From positions 1-64,000 of the forward strand of contig JAILEM010000081.1 of the NCBI GenBank assembly GCA_024687745.1: a DNA stretch of 64,000 nt, in the 5' to 3' direction. The notes under the pieces are model-generated. The model had not been told where the DNA came from. It saw only the letters and a list, made by a program, of their open reading frames with translations, and searched no databases. A program made the position numbers and the translations under genes. Positions 47,630-60,480 of this stretch are shown one piece after another. How positions within the stretch are numbered: position 1 is the first letter of the stretch; every line of letters starts with the position of its first letter. The stretch is from Lachnospiraceae bacterium (GTDB lineage: Bacteria; Bacillota; Clostridia; Lachnospirales; Lachnospiraceae).

Positions 47630-47665
47630 TTACCTCAGGTATAAAAAAATTAGCTTTTGAGATAA
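47630..47665. repeat. Solitary copy of the 36-bp imperfect palindrome TTACCTCA-N20-TGAGATAA
   Basis: Same arms and same 36-bp length as the 53.3-kb array; upstream flank TCAGAAAACTCTGT resembles TTCAGAAATCTTGT. Confidence 0.6.
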
Positions 47666-49258: not shown

Positions 49259-50425
49259 TCAACCCGTAAGCTTCTGCATGGCGAATGCCTTTACTATCTT
49301 AAGTATAAGATCTACTATCCTGTCTATATCTTCATCAGAAAGCGAGAATCCAAGCTCATCAAGTATCCCCCTCACTATCTCCTCGATCTCTGATTTTGAA
49401 GCGGGATTATTATTAATGATCTCATCCTTTATCTCAGAGATCAGCTTTGCGGAATCCTCCTTGGAGCCAACCGCTTCGGCTATCTCTCCCGTTGTTATGA
49501 GCTCATCAACCGCTGCATCAACTACCATCTCCGATACAGAAATGCCCGATAACTCCTCATATGCCTTAACCGCTCCTATCAATGCTGCGGTTCCCGACAG
49601 TTCAAAAGGACCGGCGACTATGATATCCGCATCGTTAACTCCTGCTGTCATAAAAGCATTTTTATACATTTCAGGTGTACAATAATTTATGTTCTTTGTG
49701 GTTACATTGATACCGTACCCTTTTTCCATCGGCTTTACAAGTACAGACGAAAGTGCGTTTTTCCCGATCTTTGCAGGATCTATATAGCTGTCAAGAAAAG
49801 CATGCTCCTCTTCATTGGTAACATATACCACATCCATGGTATCAAGCTCTTCCTTAGAGATTCCCATCAATTCAAGAACTGTTGAGATCTGGGCATCTGT
49901 AAGATTCTTTCCGAGCGCCAGATAATTCTTTGAGGCTGCGCTTTCCTCCTTATCCTCTGTTGCATCTTTCTCTGTTTCCTTATTTGCGGCGTTGTCAGAC
50001 TCTTTCTCTGCTTCCTTATTAGCGGCATCCTCAGACTCTTTCTCTGCTTCCTTATTTGTAGCGTCCTCAGACTCTTTCTCTGCTTCCTTTTTAGCGGCGT
50101 CCTCAGACTCTTCAGCTTTTGCTTTGCCCGGATCTGCAGCTTCCTTCACATCAGCAGCCTCTTCCTCAGCAGTTACTTCCTCTGAATCTGTTGTCTCCTT
50201 AGGATCTGCTGCTTCCTTTGCATCTTTAGCTTCTCCCTCAGCCATGGCCTTTTCCTTGAGCTCTTCTATCTCACTTTCGGATAATTCGCCTGCCATGTAA
50301 TCCTTATACTCCTGAGATTCTGTATCAATAGAGTAAAGATCCGCTGACTGGCCTCCACATCCGATAACAGGAATAGTCAGTGCCGCTGTAAGTGCAACTG
50401 CTATAAATCTTTTCATCTTCATCAT
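49259..50425 (-). CDS. DUF1002-type lipoprotein with acidic tandem repeats
   Basis: Lipobox-like ALTAALTIPVIGCGGQ; KEAEKESEDAAN repeats; GKNLTDAQISTVLELMGI...NINYCTPEMYKNAFMTAGVNDADIIVAGPFELSGTAALIGAVKAYE. Confidence 0.82.
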   Translation of the reverse strand: MMKMKRFIAVALTAALTIPVIGCGGQSADLYSIDTESQEYKDYMAGELSESEIEELKEKAMAEGEAKDAKEAADPKETTDSEEVTAEEEAADVKEAADPGKAKAEESEDAAKKEAEKESEDATNKEAEKESEDAANKEAEKESDNAANKETEKDATEDKEESAASKNYLALGKNLTDAQISTVLELMGISKEELDTMDVVYVTNEEEHAFLDSYIDPAKIGKNALSSVLVKPMEKGYGINVTTKNINYCTPEMYKNAFMTAGVNDADIIVAGPFELSGTAALIGAVKAYEELSGISVSEMVVDAAVDELITTGEIAEAVGSKEDSAKLISEIKDEIINNNPASKSEIEEIVRGILDELGFSLSDEDIDRIVDLILKIVKAFAMQKLTG

Positions 50426-50524
50426 AAGATCCTCCAGGTATATTTATTATCTTATTATTTTTTTCTTATATGTTTATTTTCTTATATACTTACTTTCTGT
50501 ATATTTCTGCTTTTTCGTCCCTTT

Positions 50525-51838
50525 TTACCCCCGATTATTGCGCATTTCTTTTTTGATCTTGCGCGCCTTTAACCCACTTATCCGCTCTTCTTCCTTTAAT
50601 GTCAGATTAAGCGGATTTGTTATATAATTATCCGCTGCCTTTGCCTTTGCGACAGACTTCATGCTTAAATACATTATCAGGCCTGTTATACCCGATACCA
50701 AAAGTCCGACAAAGAAAGCTGACATAGTTGATTGATCGGTAAAGGTAACCAATGCAAGCATTATGGCAAGAAACAGGGGAATACATACAGCTAAAAGCTT
50801 AAAAGCGCTTACGGGAAGATCTCCTATCATCTTACCTGTCTGACCGTTCATAGCGAATTTGAAGGTTTTGTCCTTCCATTTTGTTACAAGGAGCCAGACC
50901 GGTAAAAGAGCATACTTTGTACTTTCCCCTTCATACCTGACATCTTCATCGGTTTCCTCTATACCGTCATGCTTTATAGTCTTTATGACCTGGTCGTGTA
51001 TACTGCCCTTTGCTCTTTCATGAGCCCTTTCCTGACACTCCTCTTCTGAGACATCATATCTTTCCGCCATAAATCCCGGAAGATATACCATCGAGAAATC
51101 CTTAAGTCCGCTTAGCTCATAGGGTTCTACAGAATCCATCATGTCGTCATCCATCCTCTTTGAAGCATCTGCCGGCACGTTTTCATAATCAAGAAAGCCA
51201 CGTCTTCTCACCTGAAACCTTGCGGTAATATGTTTTTTCCCGTTACTGTCCTTTGATTCGTCATAAGCAACATAATTACCGTCAAGATGAACCCTCCCCG
51301 AAAACATCCAGAAGGGAACATAAACTCCCTGTATCTCTTCTACATGGTTACCTGTCTTAAAGGATTTGGGCAAAAGAAATCTCTTATTGTAAAATGACTT
51401 GTATTTTTCCTCAGCTTCGTCCTTGGTATGCGCAAACGGAATTATATAATCAGGACGTATAGAGCCTGAGAACTGTTCTTCGACTATGGTCTGGTTACCG
51501 CAGTACGGACAACGCATGACAGCTGTTGTCTGATCTGCCAAAAGCTCTGCTCCGCAGGTTGAACAGCTGTAGGATTTCATCTCTCCCTCTTCAAATTCAA
51601 CCGGATCATAGCTTCTTATAACATCCTCACTCTCATCAGATGCCTGTTCTTCGATATCCTCCTGCCCGGCACCTCCTGATTTTTTTCTCCATTCTTCTTC
51701 CACTTCCTCAGGGGTATACAACATGTCACAATACTGACACTTTAGCTTTCCCTCTGTCGGATCAAATAATAATTCCCCACCACAGGCCGGACAGGTTGAT
51801 GCCTTTGTCTTAGCCGGCTCCCTAAAATTATCATCCAT
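50525..51838 (-). CDS. TFIIB-type zinc-ribbon membrane protein (YdjG-like)
   Basis: CPACGGELLFDPTEGKLKCQYCD and CSTCGAELLADQTTAVMRCPYCGNQTIV ribbons; two C-terminal TM helices. Confidence 0.75.
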   Translation of the reverse strand: MDDNFREPAKTKASTCPACGGELLFDPTEGKLKCQYCDMLYTPEEVEEEWRKKSGGAGQEDIEEQASDESEDVIRSYDPVEFEEGEMKSYSCSTCGAELLADQTTAVMRCPYCGNQTIVEEQFSGSIRPDYIIPFAHTKDEAEEKYKSFYNKRFLLPKSFKTGNHVEEIQGVYVPFWMFSGRVHLDGNYVAYDESKDSNGKKHITARFQVRRRGFLDYENVPADASKRMDDDMMDSVEPYELSGLKDFSMVYLPGFMAERYDVSEEECQERAHERAKGSIHDQVIKTIKHDGIEETDEDVRYEGESTKYALLPVWLLVTKWKDKTFKFAMNGQTGKMIGDLPVSAFKLLAVCIPLFLAIMLALVTFTDQSTMSAFFVGLLVSGITGLIMYLSMKSVAKAKAADNYITNPLNLTLKEEERISGLKARKIKKEMRNNRG

Positions 51839-51868
51839 ACTTAACCTCCCTTACAGATACAATCATCC

Positions 51869-53230
51869 CTATACATCTTCCTTGTCTGAATCGTTAAATG
51901 GATCTCCGCATTCCGGACAGAACCTCGGTATGTTATTTAGATCAGAAGGCTCCCATCCGCATTTATCGCATTTCCATTTAAAGCTGCTTCCCTTGGGTCT
52001 TGGCTTGCCACAGTTTTCACAGAATTTGCCTGTGTTGTCTGTACCACAGGTACAGGTCCAGACCACACCGGAGGTTACAGGCTTTGGCTGTCCGCAGTTA
52101 CTGCAGAACTTACCCTTATTCCCGCTCTTTCCGCAGGAGCATGTCCATCCGTCATCAGCACCTCCTCCTGCAGCAGAATTCTGCACTGTAGGTTGTTTGG
52201 CATTCACCTGCTGTTGCTGCTGTTGTCCCATCGCATAAAGATCGCCCGCATTCACTCCTCCTGCCTGATTTGCCATATTCATTCCCGCAAAAGCCATCAT
52301 GGGACCTGCTGTCTTGTTTGAAGCCGCTGCCTTCATTGCCTCTGCCTGAGCACCTGTAAGTGTTGCAGCTGCCATGGTTGGGTTCTTAAATACAGCATTT
52401 TTCTGAAGATCCTTTATCATCTTCTCATCTTCAGGAAGAGCAGAAATAGTATCCACACCAAAGGATACGACCTCTATTCCTCTTAACTCTCCCCATTTAG
52501 ATGACAATACCTCATTCAGAGCATCTGCAAGCTCTGTAGTATGTCCCGGAAGAGCACTGTATCTTATTCCCATTTCGGAAATCTTTGCAAAAGCAGGCTG
52601 TAAAGCAGTCATAAGCTCTGTCTTTAACTGTCCGTCTATGGTTGTTCGCCTGTATTCATCGGACACATTTCCGGATACATTTGTATAGAAGAGGATCGGA
52701 TCTGTAAGCTTATAGGAATATTCTCCGTGACAGCGTACTGAGATATCCACGTCAAGCCCGATGTTATTATCTACGACCCTGAAAGGAACAGGCTTTGCGG
52801 TTCCGTATTTATTTCCGGGTATTTCCTTGGTATTTATATAATAAACTCTCTGATCGTGACCGGTATCTCCTCCAAAGGCAATCCTTCTTCCAAACTTCTT
52901 GAAAGTCTCTAAAATATTGACACCTAAATTTCCGTAAAAAATACTCGGTTCAGTACTTGAATCCCAGACAAATTCCCCGGGCTGTGCGCAAAGCTCCACA
53001 ACCTTTCCCTGGTCCACTATGATCATGCACTGGCCATCAGCTACCGCCACGATGGATCCGTTACTTATAACATTATCGTTTCCCTTTGTGTTGGAGCTTC
53101 TTTTTCCCGTCCTTTTTTCCGCCTTTTTCAAAAGTACATCCGCCGGAAGGGCTTCACAGTAAAAAAACTCTCTCCAGGTATCCGCAAGTGTACCGGAAGC
53201 TGCCTCTCCTGTTGCTTCGATCAATCCCAT
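51869..53230 (-). CDS. SPFH/virion-core-type protein with C-terminal zinc ribbons (YdjI-like)
   Basis: GSIVAVADGQCMIIVDQGKVVELCAQPGEF...FGGDTGHDQRVYYINTKEIPGNKYGT; three CxxC...CxxC ribbons. Confidence 0.85.
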   Translation of the reverse strand: MGLIEATGEAASGTLADTWREFFYCEALPADVLLKKAEKRTGKRSSNTKGNDNVISNGSIVAVADGQCMIIVDQGKVVELCAQPGEFVWDSSTEPSIFYGNLGVNILETFKKFGRRIAFGGDTGHDQRVYYINTKEIPGNKYGTAKPVPFRVVDNNIGLDVDISVRCHGEYSYKLTDPILFYTNVSGNVSDEYRRTTIDGQLKTELMTALQPAFAKISEMGIRYSALPGHTTELADALNEVLSSKWGELRGIEVVSFGVDTISALPEDEKMIKDLQKNAVFKNPTMAAATLTGAQAEAMKAAASNKTAGPMMAFAGMNMANQAGGVNAGDLYAMGQQQQQQVNAKQPTVQNSAAGGGADDGWTCSCGKSGNKGKFCSNCGQPKPVTSGVVWTCTCGTDNTGKFCENCGKPRPKGSSFKWKCDKCGWEPSDLNNIPRFCPECGDPFNDSDKEDV

Positions 53231-53276
53231 TTTCCCTGTCTCCTTTCTTCTTTAAAGTAGCGTATGATCGACGCTC

Positions 53277-53735
53277 CTTTTTCTATATAAATCTTCCTGT
53301 TTTGAAAGTCCTTTTTACCTCAAAGACCGCAAAAACCATCTCTGAGATAACCGCTTCTCTTCCAATCTTCCTGTTTTGAAAGTCCTTTTTACCTCAAAGG
53401 CCGAAAAAAACGTCTCTGAGATAACCGCCTCTCTTCCAATCTTCCTGCTTTGAAAGTCCTTTTTACCTCAAAGACCGCAAAAGCCATCTCTGAGATAAAC
53501 ACTCTTCTTGAAATCAGAAATTTAGAAATTTGTTATTTATCTCAGGAACCGGAAATTTTCCCTTTGAGGTATATATGCTTTCTTCGGATTTCCATTCGTA
53601 AAAATCTTGTTTGACTCAAAGCACAGAAATTTTTCTCCTTAGATAAAAACACTTTTTCCAAACGCATATTTTCAGAAATCTTGTTTACCTCAAACACCGG
53701 AAATCTTCCCCCTGAGGTAAATACACTTTTTCAGA
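53277..53735. repeat. Six-unit tandem array, exact 74-bp period, each with a 36-bp imperfect palindrome
   Basis: Palindrome starts at 53315, 53389, 53463, 53537, 53611, 53685; TTACCTCA-N20-TGAG(A/G)TAA. Confidence 0.9.
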
Positions 53736-53750
53736 CCCCTGTTTGCTCCT

Positions 53751-55655
53751 CTATTTATCATTCAGGCTGAAATAATAATAATCATGACCCTCTGCGTCTG
53801 TATAAGGCGTCTCATCTATACGGTACGGTCTTGCCTCCGTCACGATATCAGAGGTCTTCCTGCTGAGCTCCCTGCTGTTATACCCGATCTGGAAGATGGT
53901 CCCGTCATACCATTCAGGACAGGTTACCGTTATCTTTCCGTACATGATGGGATATTCATAGCTCTTTTCAAATTCTGTATTTACATAAAGATCTTTTCCG
54001 GGGATACTGCTCTCTATCTTTACAAGTCCATTCTCATCTGTCTCGGTATCTTCACTGAATTCAAAATAGATCCCTGAATATCTGTCAAGTGCCGTATACC
54101 AGAAGAAAGGCTTTGCTCCTTCATCGTTAACGGCATCACTCAGATCAAAGAAGCCCTCAAGTATGACCTCCTTATAGCCATCAATGACACCATCTGTGTT
54201 TTCTGTGATGCTCACTGTTGTGGGAAGTGTAACCTCCTCAAGATCCTCTTCGGTTGTAGAATTCATGGTTGTGAATGAAAACTCTCCCTGAGGAGTGATC
54301 TTAAGATTGTTTGCGGTCATAAAGCCTAACATACTTTCACTCTTAAGATACTCATCCACTACACCTCCATCAGAATCCCTGCTCTCATCTCCCTGTGAAG
54401 CTTCTCCCTGTGAAGAGTAACCGTCTGAAGCATCCCCTTCCGATCCTTCCCCGGAATCTCCCTCTCCAAAGAAATCATCGGAATTTTGCACCTCATTAAG
54501 AAGGTTATCTATCGGAGTGATCCCGGTTGATGCACCACCCTGTTCTGCTTCTAGCGTTTCTTCTGCTTCTACCGTTTCTTCCGATTCGGTTTTATCAGTA
54601 TTCATCGCAGATTCATACATATCGGGTTCAGACTCTTTATCTCTGTTTATGAGCATAACGGCAATTAAAACTATGGCTATGGCAGCGACAGGAACTATAA
54701 AGATCCACTTCTTACTCTTAGCACTTCCCGAACCATCATTAAACTGCTTTTCTTCGGCTATCTGCATAGCCCTCTGCACGGTTGCATTTCCCCCGGAACT
54801 GCCTGTAAAGCTGTCTACGTTCTGCCTCTGTGGATGCCTTATTCCCGACTGCGGAGCACCTCCTGCCGGTGGCACATCTCCATACCCGCCTGTCCCGCCC
54901 ATAGGAGGTGCATGTCGGACATTCATTGTACTGTCTATATCAGGCGCATTCCCGTAAGATCCTGTTACCTGTCCTGAAGACTGTGCGCCTCCATATCCGC
55001 CTGTTCCACCCATAGGAGGTGCATGTCGGACATTTACCGTACTGTCTATATCAGGCGCATTCCCGTACGATCCTGTTACCTGTCCTGAAGACTGTGCGCC
55101 TCCGTATCCGCCTGTTCCACCTGCAGGCGGTGCATGTCGGACATTTACCGTACTGTCTATATCGGGGGCATTCCCGTACGATCCTGTCACCTGCCCGGCT
55201 GATCGTGAACCTACGTCCCCACCTGTTCCTCCTGCAGGCGGTGCATGTCGGACATTCACTGTACTGTCTATATCGGGCGCATTCCCGTAAGATCCTGTCA
55301 CCTGCCCGGCTGACTGTGCGCCTCCGTCCCCGCCTGTTCCTCCCACAGGCGGTGCATGTCGGACATTCATCGTACTGTCTATATCGGGGGCATTACCGTA
55401 CGATCCTGTCACCTGCCCGGCTGATCGTGAACCTACGTCCCCGCCTGTTCCTCCCACAGGCGGTGCATGTCGGACATTTACCGTACTGTCTATATCGGGG
55501 GCATTACCCCCATCGAATCCCGGATCATCCTCCAAAATCGGATATTCAGCCTCACAGGCCGGACATATCGTCGCTCCCGGAGGAATTATCGTACCGCAGT
55601 ATTCACATATTCTCTGACCTTTTCCAGACATCTCTCTTCCCTCTGCATATAACAT
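53751..55655 (-). CDS. Zinc-ribbon / 37-aa-repeat scaffold with a TM helix and extracytoplasmic C-terminal domain
   Basis: ICEYCGTIIPPGATICPACEAEYP; six GNAPDIDST(V/M)NVRHAPP... repeats; TM KWIFIVPVAAIAIVLIAVML. Confidence 0.85.
   Translation of the reverse strand: MLYAEGREMSGKGQRICEYCGTIIPPGATICPACEAEYPILEDDPGFDGGNAPDIDSTVNVRHAPPVGGTGGDVGSRSAGQVTGSYGNAPDIDSTMNVRHAPPVGGTGGDGGAQSAGQVTGSYGNAPDIDSTVNVRHAPPAGGTGGDVGSRSAGQVTGSYGNAPDIDSTVNVRHAPPAGGTGGYGGAQSSGQVTGSYGNAPDIDSTVNVRHAPPMGGTGGYGGAQSSGQVTGSYGNAPDIDSTMNVRHAPPMGGTGGYGDVPPAGGAPQSGIRHPQRQNVDSFTGSSGGNATVQRAMQIAEEKQFNDGSGSAKSKKWIFIVPVAAIAIVLIAVMLINRDKESEPDMYESAMNTDKTESEETVEAEETLEAEQGGASTGITPIDNLLNEVQNSDDFFGEGDSGEGSEGDASDGYSSQGEASQGDESRDSDGGVVDEYLKSESMLGFMTANNLKITPQGEFSFTTMNSTTEEDLEEVTLPTTVSITENTDGVIDGYKEVILEGFFDLSDAVNDEGAKPFFWYTALDRYSGIYFEFSEDTETDENGLVKIESSIPGKDLYVNTEFEKSYEYPIMYGKITVTCPEWYDGTIFQIGYNSRELSRKTSDIVTEARPYRIDETPYTDAEGHDYYYFSLNDK
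54900..55515 (-). repeat. 111-bp coding tandem repeat, six units
   Basis: gcatgtcgg at 54910, 55021, 55132, 55243, 55354, 55465 (111-bp steps). Confidence 0.93.
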
Positions 55656-55792
55656 TTTATGTAAACTAATTTTATATAAAGAACCCTAATCTGTATAAGA
55701 TACCTATTTTATATAAGAAACATATCCCCGTTTCAGTAAGTCCCGGATCATTCATTCAGAACTCGTATGCAAGCCCTGATCTCAAGTTCTCC

Positions 55793-58102
55793 CTACCCGT
55801 TCTCCTTAGCGACTGTCTGTAATACCAGTCTTGCTATGATCAGAAACAGAACTACAAATAACAGTAAAAGCCCCCAGTCATGAAAAAGATTGCTCTTTGT
55901 AAATTCAAAGCATTCCTCCGCCAGATGTTTAAGGGGCAGGCCCTGCTGCTGAAGAGCCAGATCGAGCTCATTCAGATTTGCAGTCGTTCCGTAAGCCTCC
56001 ATACTCCAGCGGCAGGTCGCAAACCATGAAATGATCTTGGTCGCTCCGGAGAGCGCAAACATCATTCCCGAAAAAAGGATCTGCGGCATCAGAAGTATCG
56101 GTGCTACCGTCATAGCCCTGTCGGCATTTGTAAAGAGTGCCGATACAAAAAGTCCCATGGCCGATGCGGATACTGCAGTAAGGAAGGTTGTTAAGAATAT
56201 CTCAAGGAAGGGGCTCATTAACACTCCCTCCTCAGGGAGTCCCACCGCTATGGCAAATACCGCAACCATAAGAAGGCTCTGTATGAGACACATAAATCCA
56301 AGCACGGCTATCTTTGAGATAATATAATTTGTAAGTGAAAGACCCGTCATATACTCTCTTCTTAAGATCGTCCTCTCCTTACAGACCTCCTGGATAGCAT
56401 TTAGCATACCTACCCAGAACGCACAGCAGGATAAGGAGAAAAGAAGACTCTTGGTCATCTCATACTGCTTAAACTGCTCCCCGTCGGAAACAAAGGATAT
56501 GAGGATGGCAAGTAAAGGAGCCTGCAGCATAAGAAGTATAAGCCTCTGCCTGTCATTCATCACAAGCTTAACATATCTCTGACAGAGTACAGGAAGCTGG
56601 TTTGCTTTTTTCTCCTTCTTCTTAGGTACGACAGCTTTCTGCTCTGTTCTCGTCTTCCCACCCTGCGCTGAAGCCACAGTTGCGTCATATCTCTGTCTTA
56701 CTTCCTTTGCGTGATCGGTTATCATACCGTATACATCCACAACATCCGATACCTCAAAGAATCTGAGAGCATCATCGTAGGATCCGAAGAAACAGAGGTT
56801 TCCACCCTTCCCCATAAATACGATCTTGTCACACATCCTGAGCTGAAGGGTACTGTGTGTTACAAGGATCACGGTCTTACCGCCGTCTGCCATCTCACGA
56901 AGAGAAGTCATCAGGTTTCTCTCTGTCCCCGGATCCAGCCCCGATGAGGGTTCATCGAGGAATAACAGATTAGGATCAGACAGAAGCTCAACCGCTATGC
57001 TTGCCCTCTTCTTCTGGCCGCCACTGAGCGCCTTTATAAAGCTCTTCTTTTTTTCTGTGAGCTCCACAAGACTGATAGCCCTGTCGATAGCTGCCTCTCT
57101 CTCCTTTTGTGAGGTATCGGGCGGAAGCCTTAACTTCGAGGTATACAGGAGCATATCGTAAAGTGTGAGGTTATCATATACGATATCAGACTGTGGTACA
57201 TAACCGATGAGTTTCTTTAATGAATCAAAGTTTTCATACAGATCCGCACCGTTTATATATACATGACCCGAAGCAGGATGAAGATATCCGCTCATCGCAT
57301 TTAATATCGTAGACTTACCGGCTCCGGAACCTCCGATTATCGCTATCAGCTCGCCGGGTTTTATATTAAGGCTTACATCGTTGCAGGTTATAAAGGCCTT
57401 GTCACCCTTACCCCTCTTTATGATCACGTTTTCCGCATCCACGGAAATACCGCCTCCGTAGAAGCAGTAGGATATCATCTGCGAAGTAAATATAAGCTTC
57501 GAGTTTGTGATCATTATGACATCTTTTTCGTGTAGCTGCTGTCTGGCGGTTATACGCCTGTTATTTACTATCACTCCGTTCGTGCTGCTGTTATCCTCTA
57601 TAAAATACTGTCCGTTAGAGAATGTTATCCTTGCATGCAGCTTGGAAACGCTGATATGGGGAAGTACCACCATACATCCGCTTTCCCTACCTATGGTGAT
57701 CTCCTTCTGTCCCTGAAGCATTAAGGTATTCCATCTGTTGGGTGAATCAGCTGCGGAAAAAACAAACAGAACTCCCTCCGCGATAGTTTCCACACCGTCA
57801 TCTATCCTTATAAAATCACCTTCACATAAGGACCTTTGAATTATGGAAGCGTTATTGTATATGAGACCGTTGGTACTTGGTGATGCTCCGTAAAAGGCCC
57901 TGTCCTCCATGGACCACTGTCCGTTTGCAAAAAAGAAACGTCCGTGCTCGGCTGATACAAGCTTTGAAGTAAGCACGATATCATTTCCCGGCGCACGTCC
58001 AAAGCTTATCTCATTTTTCCCAAAATCCAAAAGCCTTATATTGACGGGGGCATTACTTCCGTCAAATATCGAAACTATCAGATCAAACTTATCAATATCC
58101 AT
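55793..58102 (-). CDS. Double-FHA ABC-2 type transporter (ATPase plus permease)
   Basis: FHA1 ISFGRAPGNDIVLTSKLVSAEHGRF, FHA2 ITIGRESGCMVVLPHISVSKLHARI; Walker A GGSGAGKST, ALSGGQKKRASIAVELL, LLFLDEPSSGLD; C-terminal TMs; start ATG 58102 preferred. Confidence 0.93.
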   Translation of the reverse strand: MDIDKFDLIVSIFDGSNAPVNIRLLDFGKNEISFGRAPGNDIVLTSKLVSAEHGRFFFANGQWSMEDRAFYGASPSTNGLIYNNASIIQRSLCEGDFIRIDDGVETIAEGVLFVFSAADSPNRWNTLMLQGQKEITIGRESGCMVVLPHISVSKLHARITFSNGQYFIEDNSSTNGVIVNNRRITARQQLHEKDVIMITNSKLIFTSQMISYCFYGGGISVDAENVIIKRGKGDKAFITCNDVSLNIKPGELIAIIGGSGAGKSTILNAMSGYLHPASGHVYINGADLYENFDSLKKLIGYVPQSDIVYDNLTLYDMLLYTSKLRLPPDTSQKEREAAIDRAISLVELTEKKKSFIKALSGGQKKRASIAVELLSDPNLLFLDEPSSGLDPGTERNLMTSLREMADGGKTVILVTHSTLQLRMCDKIVFMGKGGNLCFFGSYDDALRFFEVSDVVDVYGMITDHAKEVRQRYDATVASAQGGKTRTEQKAVVPKKKEKKANQLPVLCQRYVKLVMNDRQRLILLMLQAPLLAILISFVSDGEQFKQYEMTKSLLFSLSCCAFWVGMLNAIQEVCKERTILRREYMTGLSLTNYIISKIAVLGFMCLIQSLLMVAVFAIAVGLPEEGVLMSPFLEIFLTTFLTAVSASAMGLFVSALFTNADRAMTVAPILLMPQILFSGMMFALSGATKIISWFATCRWSMEAYGTTANLNELDLALQQQGLPLKHLAEECFEFTKSNLFHDWGLLLLFVVLFLIIARLVLQTVAKENG

Positions 58103-58116
58103 TTTTCCCTCCTCTG

Positions 58117-58896
58117 TCAACCAAACAGACCGCTCAGTCCGGTTTTTTTCTTTTTTACCCTGCAAAGAATGATCGTGATATTGTCCCTTCCGCCATTCTC
58201 AAGTGCAGTATTTAAAAGTGTAATAGTTGCATCCTCTATCGTATTCGTGGAAATGACACGGCTTATCTCGTCTTCGGATACCATATCCGTCAGCCCGTCC
58301 GAACATATAAGGTAGGTATCTCCATCCATAAGCTCTCCGGTCGCAACATAGGGTTCTATCTGTAATTCCTCCGGTGGTATTCCGAGATTCTGCGAAAGTG
58401 GCGGTTTATTTCCTATCTTATATGGCGCAACATGATCGACGGATATCTGCTTAAGTTCTCCGGAAACAAGTCTGAATATCCTGCTGTCACCAATATTGCA
58501 GAGTGTTATCCCGTTATTGTCAAAATATAACATGGCTCCCGTTGTACCCATGGATTGTATGTTATTATCCCGGGCATACCTGTATATCTTCTCATTAGCC
58601 TTTTCGCAAAGTGTAAGGAGCATATCGATCGGGTCTTCATCTGCCCTCTTTTCTATACCTGCGGCGCACTCTGATGCAAGAAAGGATGCCATTTCTCCGC
58701 ATTCCTCTCCTCCCATTCCGTCAAACACCCCTATGAGAAGGCCTTTGTCTCCCGTCGATACTCCTTTTAAGGGTTTCTCCATGCTGCGTTCATGGTTTTT
58801 AAGATATACACCGTCTGCTATAAAATTATCCTGATTGATCTGTCTTCTTCTTCCTATGTCACAGATCAAACAATAAGATATCTCAAACTGTGTCAT
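58117..58896 (-). CDS. PP2C-family Ser/Thr phosphatase
   Basis: CDIGRRRQINQDNF, GVFDGMGGEECGEMAS, GDSRIFRL, CSDGLTDMV, NGGRDNITIILCRV. Confidence 0.94.
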   Translation of the reverse strand: MTQFEISYCLICDIGRRRQINQDNFIADGVYLKNHERSMEKPLKGVSTGDKGLLIGVFDGMGGEECGEMASFLASECAAGIEKRADEDPIDMLLTLCEKANEKIYRYARDNNIQSMGTTGAMLYFDNNGITLCNIGDSRIFRLVSGELKQISVDHVAPYKIGNKPPLSQNLGIPPEELQIEPYVATGELMDGDTYLICSDGLTDMVSEDEISRVISTNTIEDATITLLNTALENGGRDNITIILCRVKKKKTGLSGLFG

Positions 58897-58923
58897 ATGA
58901 TCTCCCTTTCTGTTGATCTGATC

Positions 58924-60480
58924 CTATATACCAAACTCCTCCATAACCAGCAGGAGTATGGTCATAACGATAACAAAGCCAAAAAAAGCAGCTAACGCGA
59001 TAAAAATTATCTTTATCACCTTTGCAGGAACAGACTCCTCTTTTCCCTTTTTTTCTTTTTTAGTCTGAGGGGCCTTCCTTACTACTGTTGACTGTCCCGC
59101 ATATGGGTCAGGTCGTCCGGAGCCTTGTTGCAGAGTCCTGACATTTATATTGTTCCGGTTCGTGTTTGGCCCGGATGTATTGACCTGTTCGTTAACGGGT
59201 CTCGCCGTATTAACTCCAGCATTGTTCCGGTTCGTGTTTGGTCTGGATGTATTGACCTGTTCGTTAACGGGTCTTGCCGTATTAACTCCTGCAATGTTCC
59301 GGTTCGTGTTTGACCCGGATGTATTGACCTGTCCGTTAACGGGTCTTGCCGTATTAACTCCCGCATTGTTCCGGTTCGCGTTTGGTCCGGATGTATTGAC
59401 CTGTCCGTTAACGGGTCTTGCCATATTAACTCCAGCATTGTTCCGGTTCGTGTTTGGCTTTACGCTTTGAACATCTCCGTACCCGGCATTTGTCTGTCTT
59501 ACCTTAGCTGCCCTGTCCGGTGCTACTGCATTGACATCAGGCTTCACAGCAGCGGTCTTTTCTGTTTTTACGCCGTTAGCAAGATTTTCGAGAGCCCTTT
59601 TCATCTCCGATGCATTTCTGTATCGCATATTGGGATCATAGGCCGTGGCTTTTAAAATAATTGCTGCCATCTCCTCGGATGCATACCTTGGAGGCGGCAG
59701 AGGTTCCCCGTCAAGCCTTCTTCTTACGGCCGCCATTCTCTCATTGGGATTAAGATTCGTCTGCGGCGTAAGAAACGGCATGAGCTTTCCGTTTAGAAAT
59801 CTGTACAGCACAAGACCGAGTGAATAAAGGTCCACAGTCTCATTATAGGATGTTCCCTTTTCAACCTCAGGAGCCATATAGTTAAAGGTTCCCTTCTGGG
59901 ATAAGGAGCCTGCTATATTTTCAAGCTTCCTTGCGACTCCGAAGTCCCCAAGCTTATAATCCCCATACTCGTTTATGAAGATATTTTCGGGCTTTATATC
60001 CCTGTGAATGACCTTTCTCCTTGCGCAGATCTCAAGAGCCCTGCATATATCTATACCCAGGTTTATAACAGCCTTCTCGGGAAGATTTTCATTTTCCAGA
60101 AAGGAATTGAACGGGGTCAGAAGCTCCATTCGTATAAGGATCGTAAATCCTAACTTTTCAGTATTCTCTATGACCTTATAATCCTCAACACTGACTATGT
60201 TCTGAACACCCTTAAAGGATTCCATCAGCTGTATCTCACCGACAAAATCGTTTACTATCCCTGAAAGATATGTCCTTGTGTCATCCTCAGTAAACCCTTC
60301 AGCTCTTAATGAATCCAGCTCACCCTCATCTGAAGGAATGGTAATGACCTTGATAGCCGACTTACTTTCTACGGAATAATCGTTCCTGACAGCCTCATAT
60401 ACAACGCCGTAGGCACCCTTCCCAAGCTGTTTCACCACGGACCATTCGGGCCAGGTGCGTTTTATCACATCATTTTCCAC
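58924..60480 (-). CDS. Ser/Thr protein kinase with repetitive linker and C-terminal TM
   Basis: GKGAYGVVYEAV, VIHRDIKPENIFINEYGDYKLGDFGVAR, GTFNYMAPE; C-terminal TM helix. Confidence 0.94.
   Translation of the reverse strand: MENDVIKRTWPEWSVVKQLGKGAYGVVYEAVRNDYSVESKSAIKVITIPSDEGELDSLRAEGFTEDDTRTYLSGIVNDFVGEIQLMESFKGVQNIVSVEDYKVIENTEKLGFTILIRMELLTPFNSFLENENLPEKAVINLGIDICRALEICARRKVIHRDIKPENIFINEYGDYKLGDFGVARKLENIAGSLSQKGTFNYMAPEVEKGTSYNETVDLYSLGLVLYRFLNGKLMPFLTPQTNLNPNERMAAVRRRLDGEPLPPPRYASEEMAAIILKATAYDPNMRYRNASEMKRALENLANGVKTEKTAAVKPDVNAVAPDRAAKVRQTNAGYGDVQSVKPNTNRNNAGVNMARPVNGQVNTSGPNANRNNAGVNTARPVNGQVNTSGSNTNRNIAGVNTARPVNEQVNTSRPNTNRNNAGVNTARPVNEQVNTSGPNTNRNNINVRTLQQGSGRPDPYAGQSTVVRKAPQTKKEKKGKEESVPAKVIKIIFIALAAFFGFVIVMTILLLVMEEFGI
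59153..59465 (-). repeat. 72-bp coding tandem repeat in kinase linker (24 aa, NxNRNNAGVNTARPVNEQVNTSGP)
   Basis: ttccggttcg at 59153, 59225, 59297, 59369, 59441. Confidence 0.93.

Follow-up and report, generated by a model that had tools for sequence, protein, structure and literature searches.

The window, i.e., the whole stretch of 64,000 nucleotides of a Lachnospiraceae bacterium analysed here, carries a six-unit array of 74-bp units (53296–53739, minus strand, following the direction of the flanking genes) between an SPFH (Band_7_1) gene (51869–53230, minus strand) and a zinc-ribbon/repeat ORF (53751–55655, minus strand), with 12 bp separating its stop codon from the array; the ORF is a neighbour only, and the SPFH gene adjoins the array as a neighbour rather than as a demonstrated part of the element. 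Each unit contains a 36-bp dyad on the minus strand: unit 1 (53315–53350, TTATCTCA-N20-TGAGGTAA), unit 2 (53389–53424), unit 3 (53463–53498), unit 4 (53537–53572, ATACCTCA..TGAGATAA), unit 5 (53611–53646, TTATCTAA..TGAGTCAA) and unit 6 (53685–53720, TTACCTCA..TGAGGTAA, with perfect arms). A lone dyad of the same family lies 5.7 kb from the array (47630–47665, plus strand). The dyad starts given by a sequence-only reading of this DNA (53315, 53389, 53463, 53537, 53611 and 53685, with a 74-bp step) proved exact on re-check, while its literal motif, TTACCTCA-N20-TGAG[A/G]TAA, describes units 1, 2, 3 and 6 but not units 4 and 5, the plus-strand arms of which are TTATCTCA..TGAGGTAT and TTGACTCA..TTAGATAA, respectively. 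As that reading had it, units 1–3 are nearly identical and units 4–6 have diverged, yet the latter can be aligned to the rest without any gap; Tandem Repeats Finder detects units 1–3 only. The array shares with CRISPR arrays its 36-bp, partly palindromic units and spacers of about 38 bp, but the would-be “spacer” changes or duplicates in concert with the middle of the would-be “repeat”, and a CRISPR assignment was rejected since the window array has neither constant direct repeats nor unique spacers.

Two further repeats in the window are coding: a 111-bp repeat (37 aa; 5.7 copies, 54878–55505) inside the zinc-ribbon ORF and a 72-bp repeat (24 aa; 59149–59458) inside a protein-kinase-like ORF (58924–60480). 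More broadly, the region 49259–60480 holds co-directional genes for SPFH, zinc-ribbon, FHA/ABC transporter, PP2C-like phosphatase and protein kinase products, and has the look of a signalling cluster. Homologs of the SPFH gene and of the next gene occur in a genome of another genus (G109, L228:31-2811), where another array lies about 3 kb away.

The genome to which the window belongs (3.15 Mb in 256 contigs) was first searched with a pattern, which returned the lone dyad at 47630 and, at the end of contig C204, another 74-bp array, with eight or more units; a model built from those units then recovered further loci. Altogether, the genome has 13 loci beside unrelated genes, consisting of nine arrays (two on C204, the window array on C241, and one each on C4, C46, C189, C115, C139 and C34) and four single dyads (the one at 47630 and those on C107, C180 and C7), while a copy of the first C115 unit sits at the contig end of C104. 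Chance can be excluded for the dyads, since TAYCTMA-N20-TKAGRTA was found 40 times against about 0.4 expected and its reversed control not once. Another repeat of C204, with a 72-bp period (L017:1921-2113, 2.7 copies, upstream of a 422-aa gene), carries TTTGAGGTAA in every unit and no dyad, and was set aside as different.

Substitution is free across the units of this genome, whereas length change is rare. Gap-free comparison over 74 bp gives a mean identity of 51% between units of different arrays, and the alignment of 46 units requires a single gap column. Among 39 intervals from this genome and a congener (G018), 34 measure 74 bp, the others being 73, 73, 75, 63 and 85 bp (the last in G018); the 63-bp interval, i.e., a loss of 11 bp, is the sole large length change in the genome of the window. 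The centre of the dyad is A/T in 96–100% of 46 distinct units.

To find such arrays elsewhere, we kept only the invariant arm bases and looked for two dyads of the form TNNCTNA-N20-TNAGNNA spaced 74 bp apart in 397 Lachnospiraceae genomes. This double-dyad pattern matched 32 times in the genome of the window, eight times in G109 and once each in G242, G280 and G390, against about 0.001–0.002 matches expected per genome and a reversed control matching in one of the 397 genomes. The congener G018 has four dyads upstream of uvrB, at intervals of 74, 85 and 74 bp, whose arms are GTACCTAA/TTAGGTAC and whose inter-arm sequence is unrelated. The geometry TNNCTNA-N20-TNAGNNA every 74 bp is kept in the congener and in four other genera, while nearly everything else differs. 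Since G242, G280, G390 and G018 have one array each, the recurrence rests mainly on G109 and the genome of the window. Moreover, the arrays of other genera were first found through the 74-bp pattern, a bias that only the count of single dyads in G109 escapes: without any spacing requirement, that genome yielded 45 dyads against two in the control, and it has about 11 arrays. Its sister species, G412, showed no dyads in the same kind of search.

Outside the family, three double-dyad matches in a phylum sample of 399 genomes had poor arms or looked coding and were treated as chance, and the strict pattern had no match in viral contigs, where two matches to an early version of the pattern, inside phage structural genes, were likewise rejected as chance. 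Matches of covariance models and sequence profiles in other genomes were discarded as weak singletons without arrays. We found no description of such arrays in the open-access literature, and they apparently represent an undescribed family of intergenic DNA elements of a few gut and rumen Lachnospiraceae, as seen in a pattern-based survey in which each species is represented by a single genome and many assemblies are fragmented, with arrays at contig ends.

The spacing of the dyads was then considered in terms of the DNA helix. In five G109 loci, the gap from the right arm of one dyad to the left arm of the next was 39–41 or 50–51 bp, with no other value up to 80 bp, and the inner length of the dyads was 20 bp (19 bp once). 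Centre-to-centre intervals over all fetched G109 arrays were 72.5, 74 (nine times), 75 (18 times), 83.5 (twice), 84, 85 (six times), 106 and 68 bp; the classes 72.5–75, 83.5–85 and 106 bp correspond to seven, eight and ten helical turns, with the single 68-bp interval as an out-of-phase exception. A seeming gap of 156 bp resolved into 72.5 + 83.5 bp, owing to a dyad with a 19-bp middle. When the separate events departing from 74/75 bp are counted, nine of ten deviate by no more than 1.7 bp from a multiple of 10.6 bp (binomial P = 0.00026; Rayleigh p = 0.005), these values being indicative because the selection of independent events and the 1.7-bp window were both decided post hoc. The G109 spacers gave no 10.5-bp peak of AT periodicity, i.e., no wrapping signal. 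The dyads stand at whole helical turns, as in a phased protein-binding array. The retention of spacing through sequence divergence, proposed from the window array alone, holds genome-wide and across genera, as does the suggestion that the sites lie on one face of the DNA in a nucleoprotein-type array.

Among the arrays found, none lies inside a gene. They occupy tandem, divergent and convergent intergenic gaps as well as 3′-end positions, even though most arrays in the genome of the window lie just upstream of a gene and in a single orientation; one follows a NERD-domain gene directly. Their neighbours have no common function (SPFH, AMMECR1, DHH phosphatase, TetR, oxidoreductase, zinc ribbon, RsmF, GGDEF and GDPD). 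These surroundings bear first on the possibility of an operator array for a conventional regulator, the regulon of which would include the SPFH cluster. Dimer-type sites, often upstream of genes, with one array upstream of a tetR gene and the G018 array upstream of uvrB, are what such a regulator would bind. The NikR operator (GTATGA-N16-TCATAC) and the BirA operator are likewise composed of distant inverted half-sites, with short arms around a long unconserved middle; unlike these single sites at target promoters, however, the arrays carry up to eight phased copies beside unrelated genes, some of them convergent. The search of the genome and of its relatives, by which the sequence-only reading meant its motif to be checked, had a double outcome: a family of arrays exists elsewhere, but it is missing upstream of the SPFH orthologs checked (75 loci scanned with the model, 17 upstream regions read), and an operator specific to the SPFH operon is not supported. 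A conventional operator array thus appears improbable.

A second possibility is that the arrays are transcribed as leaders, forming tandem RNA hairpins in 5′ UTRs that would tune the stability or translation of the downstream gene. Its main supporting point, which extends to a promoter role, is that six loci (C46, C34, C189, C7, C139 and C4) have in common a right end that extends to the ribosome-binding site, in line with the sense orientation of most arrays upstream of a gene; these copies may have such a role. The left end GATAGTGTCARGTAAGCC is also common to three copies, and a leader cassette GATAGTGTCARGTAAGCC ... GTTGATTTTCAAAAATGTGTATATCGAA is shared among C46:865-889, C34:738-762, C132:10382-10448 and C233:2338-2362. 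The C132 copy has both cassette ends without the dyad, which fits a leader, and C233 has the left end alone; these common ends indicate that the cassette spread upstream of genes within the genome. The sense strand of the whole window array also folds better than shuffles (z −4.1). At the level of single units, however, folding is clearly above shuffles for units 1, 3 and 6 only (z −4.3, −5.1 and −2.0), and the opposite strand of unit 6 folds equally well or better. Rfam, at gathering and permissive thresholds, returned no credible match.

If the hairpins functioned as RNA, the arms would be expected to covary. In the genome of the window, arm position 7 does so (C-G or A-T; arms p = 0.001), but it tracks array lineage, and position 4 is independent (p = 0.31). 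In G109, position 3 is independent (Fisher p = 0.69) and the arms and the middle pair as often as independence predicts (permutation p = 0.34 and 0.64), so that no excess of compensatory changes, as a structured RNA would show, is seen there. C-A mispairs are about as frequent as G-U pairs. Because the arms vary independently in G109, the dyads appear to be DNA half-sites that serve a symmetric protein, not RNA stems. Their symmetrised consensus over both genomes, read from the arm inwards, is purine/G-rich and then A/T at the centre, and this, together with the A/T centre of the units in the genome of the window, fits, in our interpretation, a symmetric protein on bent DNA. Considering also that convergent and 3′-end positions are at odds with a leader and that whole-turn spacing would be left unexplained, we regard the tandem hairpin RNAs evoked earlier for the SPFH 5′ UTR as disfavoured, and a leader role in general as unlikely.

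The nearest known kind of element is REP/BIME, described from enterobacteria and pseudomonads (PMC2817692), and the arrays could be viewed as selfish palindromes of this kind, spread by a transposase, with their spacing a by-product of duplication. Like REP/BIME, they are interspersed, intergenic (extragenic), palindromic, many-copy and clustered, and possibly serve as protein-binding platforms, BIME-2 being gyrase sites (PMC6379681); their lineage-specific occurrence, including the lack of dyads in G412, and the common cassette ends also agree with this origin. Nonetheless, a REP is a GT[A/G]G head beside a near-perfect, GC-rich palindrome with 2–4 unpaired bases (PMC2817692), whereas the arrays have neither such a head nor a GC-rich uninterrupted stem with a small loop, but 7-bp arms with 20 bp between them. 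Furthermore, no cognate Y1 transposase (RAYT; PF01797) accompanies them, as it is absent from the array-bearing G018 and G390 and present in the array-free G011, G013 and G412. Finally, the dyads are arranged in tandem in one orientation, with a free inter-arm sequence and a spacing locked to whole turns across genera, which REP/BIME does not predict. For want of the head and of Y1 tracking, and given this sequence-independent spacing, we do not class the arrays as REP, and we hold a REP/BIME-like origin to be as doubtful as an RNA leader.

In plasmids, tandem dyads are bound by partition proteins, as in the centromere array sopC of F. The earlier option of a centromere/iteron-like site would mean here that centromere (iteron) arrays of plasmid or ICE type were captured in chromosomes. 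The arrays share with sopC the tandem dyads and a symmetric protein as the presumable binder, but this option is very improbable in view of the longer period, the dispersion over 13 loci here and some 11 arrays in G109, next to ordinary chromosomal genes, the lack of par genes or parA/parB-type domains among the immediate neighbours scanned, and the zero matches in viral contigs. CodY-, CsrA-, DtxR- and type III toxin-antitoxin-like readings were also rejected, for want of a matching motif arrangement or of a shared downstream gene.

With geometry, helical phasing, independent half-sites, dispersion, intergenic position and cross-genus recurrence all observed, the window array is probably one copy of an interspersed, intergenic, helically phased binding element, sporadic among lineages, for a putative cooperative DNA-binding dimer. 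Under this reading, the inverted half-sites TRNCTMA / TKAGNYA, separated by 20 bp with an A/T-rich centre, make up a dyad, to which a symmetric dimeric or tetrameric protein would probably bind. Strung at whole helical turns (usually seven, sometimes six, eight or ten), the dyads would place the bound proteins on one DNA face, where mutual contact may build a cooperative nucleoprotein array. Tandem duplication would make arrays grow and shrink, and cassettes have been dispersed within the genome. We infer that such arrays resemble a phased operator or a centromere array in their working, and that they most likely serve to package or insulate the chromosome locally, or represent a selfish or accessory element, rather than controlling one operon.

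One gene recurs beside the arrays. According to an all-against-all comparison of neighbours, a PD-(D/E)XK-type gene lies directly downstream of an eight-unit array in two genera without further synteny: L018:785-1579 in the genome of the window (153 bp from the array) and L210:6639-7433 in G109 (25 bp). The two products are 55% identical (264 aa), and both hit PADLOC candidate models in the PD-(D/E)XK-type nuclease regions of the latter (E 7e-29 and 6e-28). Given that about 130 neighbour pairs were compared, the chance of a coincidence is a few percent, a value that was estimated, not computed. Plasmid and phage collections contained only distant relatives of the protein, and its structure model (pLDDT 51.5) was too poor for use. 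Around the first of these genes (L018, C204:11000-20329), two arrays flank about 8 kb with PD-(D/E)XK-type, Mrr-like and NERD nuclease-type genes and a zinc-ribbon protein kinase, a region that looks like a defence island. It is conceivable, though speculative, that the arrays belong to an undescribed chromosome-organising or genome-defence system of Lachnospiraceae, in which a dimeric DNA-binding protein would polymerise on phased intergenic dyads, possibly together with the adjoining PD-(D/E)XK-type protein.

The family points to selection on DNA geometry over sequence: between unrelated arrays of different genera, mirrored 7-bp sites, their 20-bp separation and whole-turn spacing are conserved, and almost nothing else is. 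It thereby offers a testable handle on what appears to be a novel sequence-specific nucleoprotein structure of major bacteria of the gut and rumen, and close species with and without arrays (G109 vs. G412; the window species vs. its congeners) provide a comparative route to the binder.
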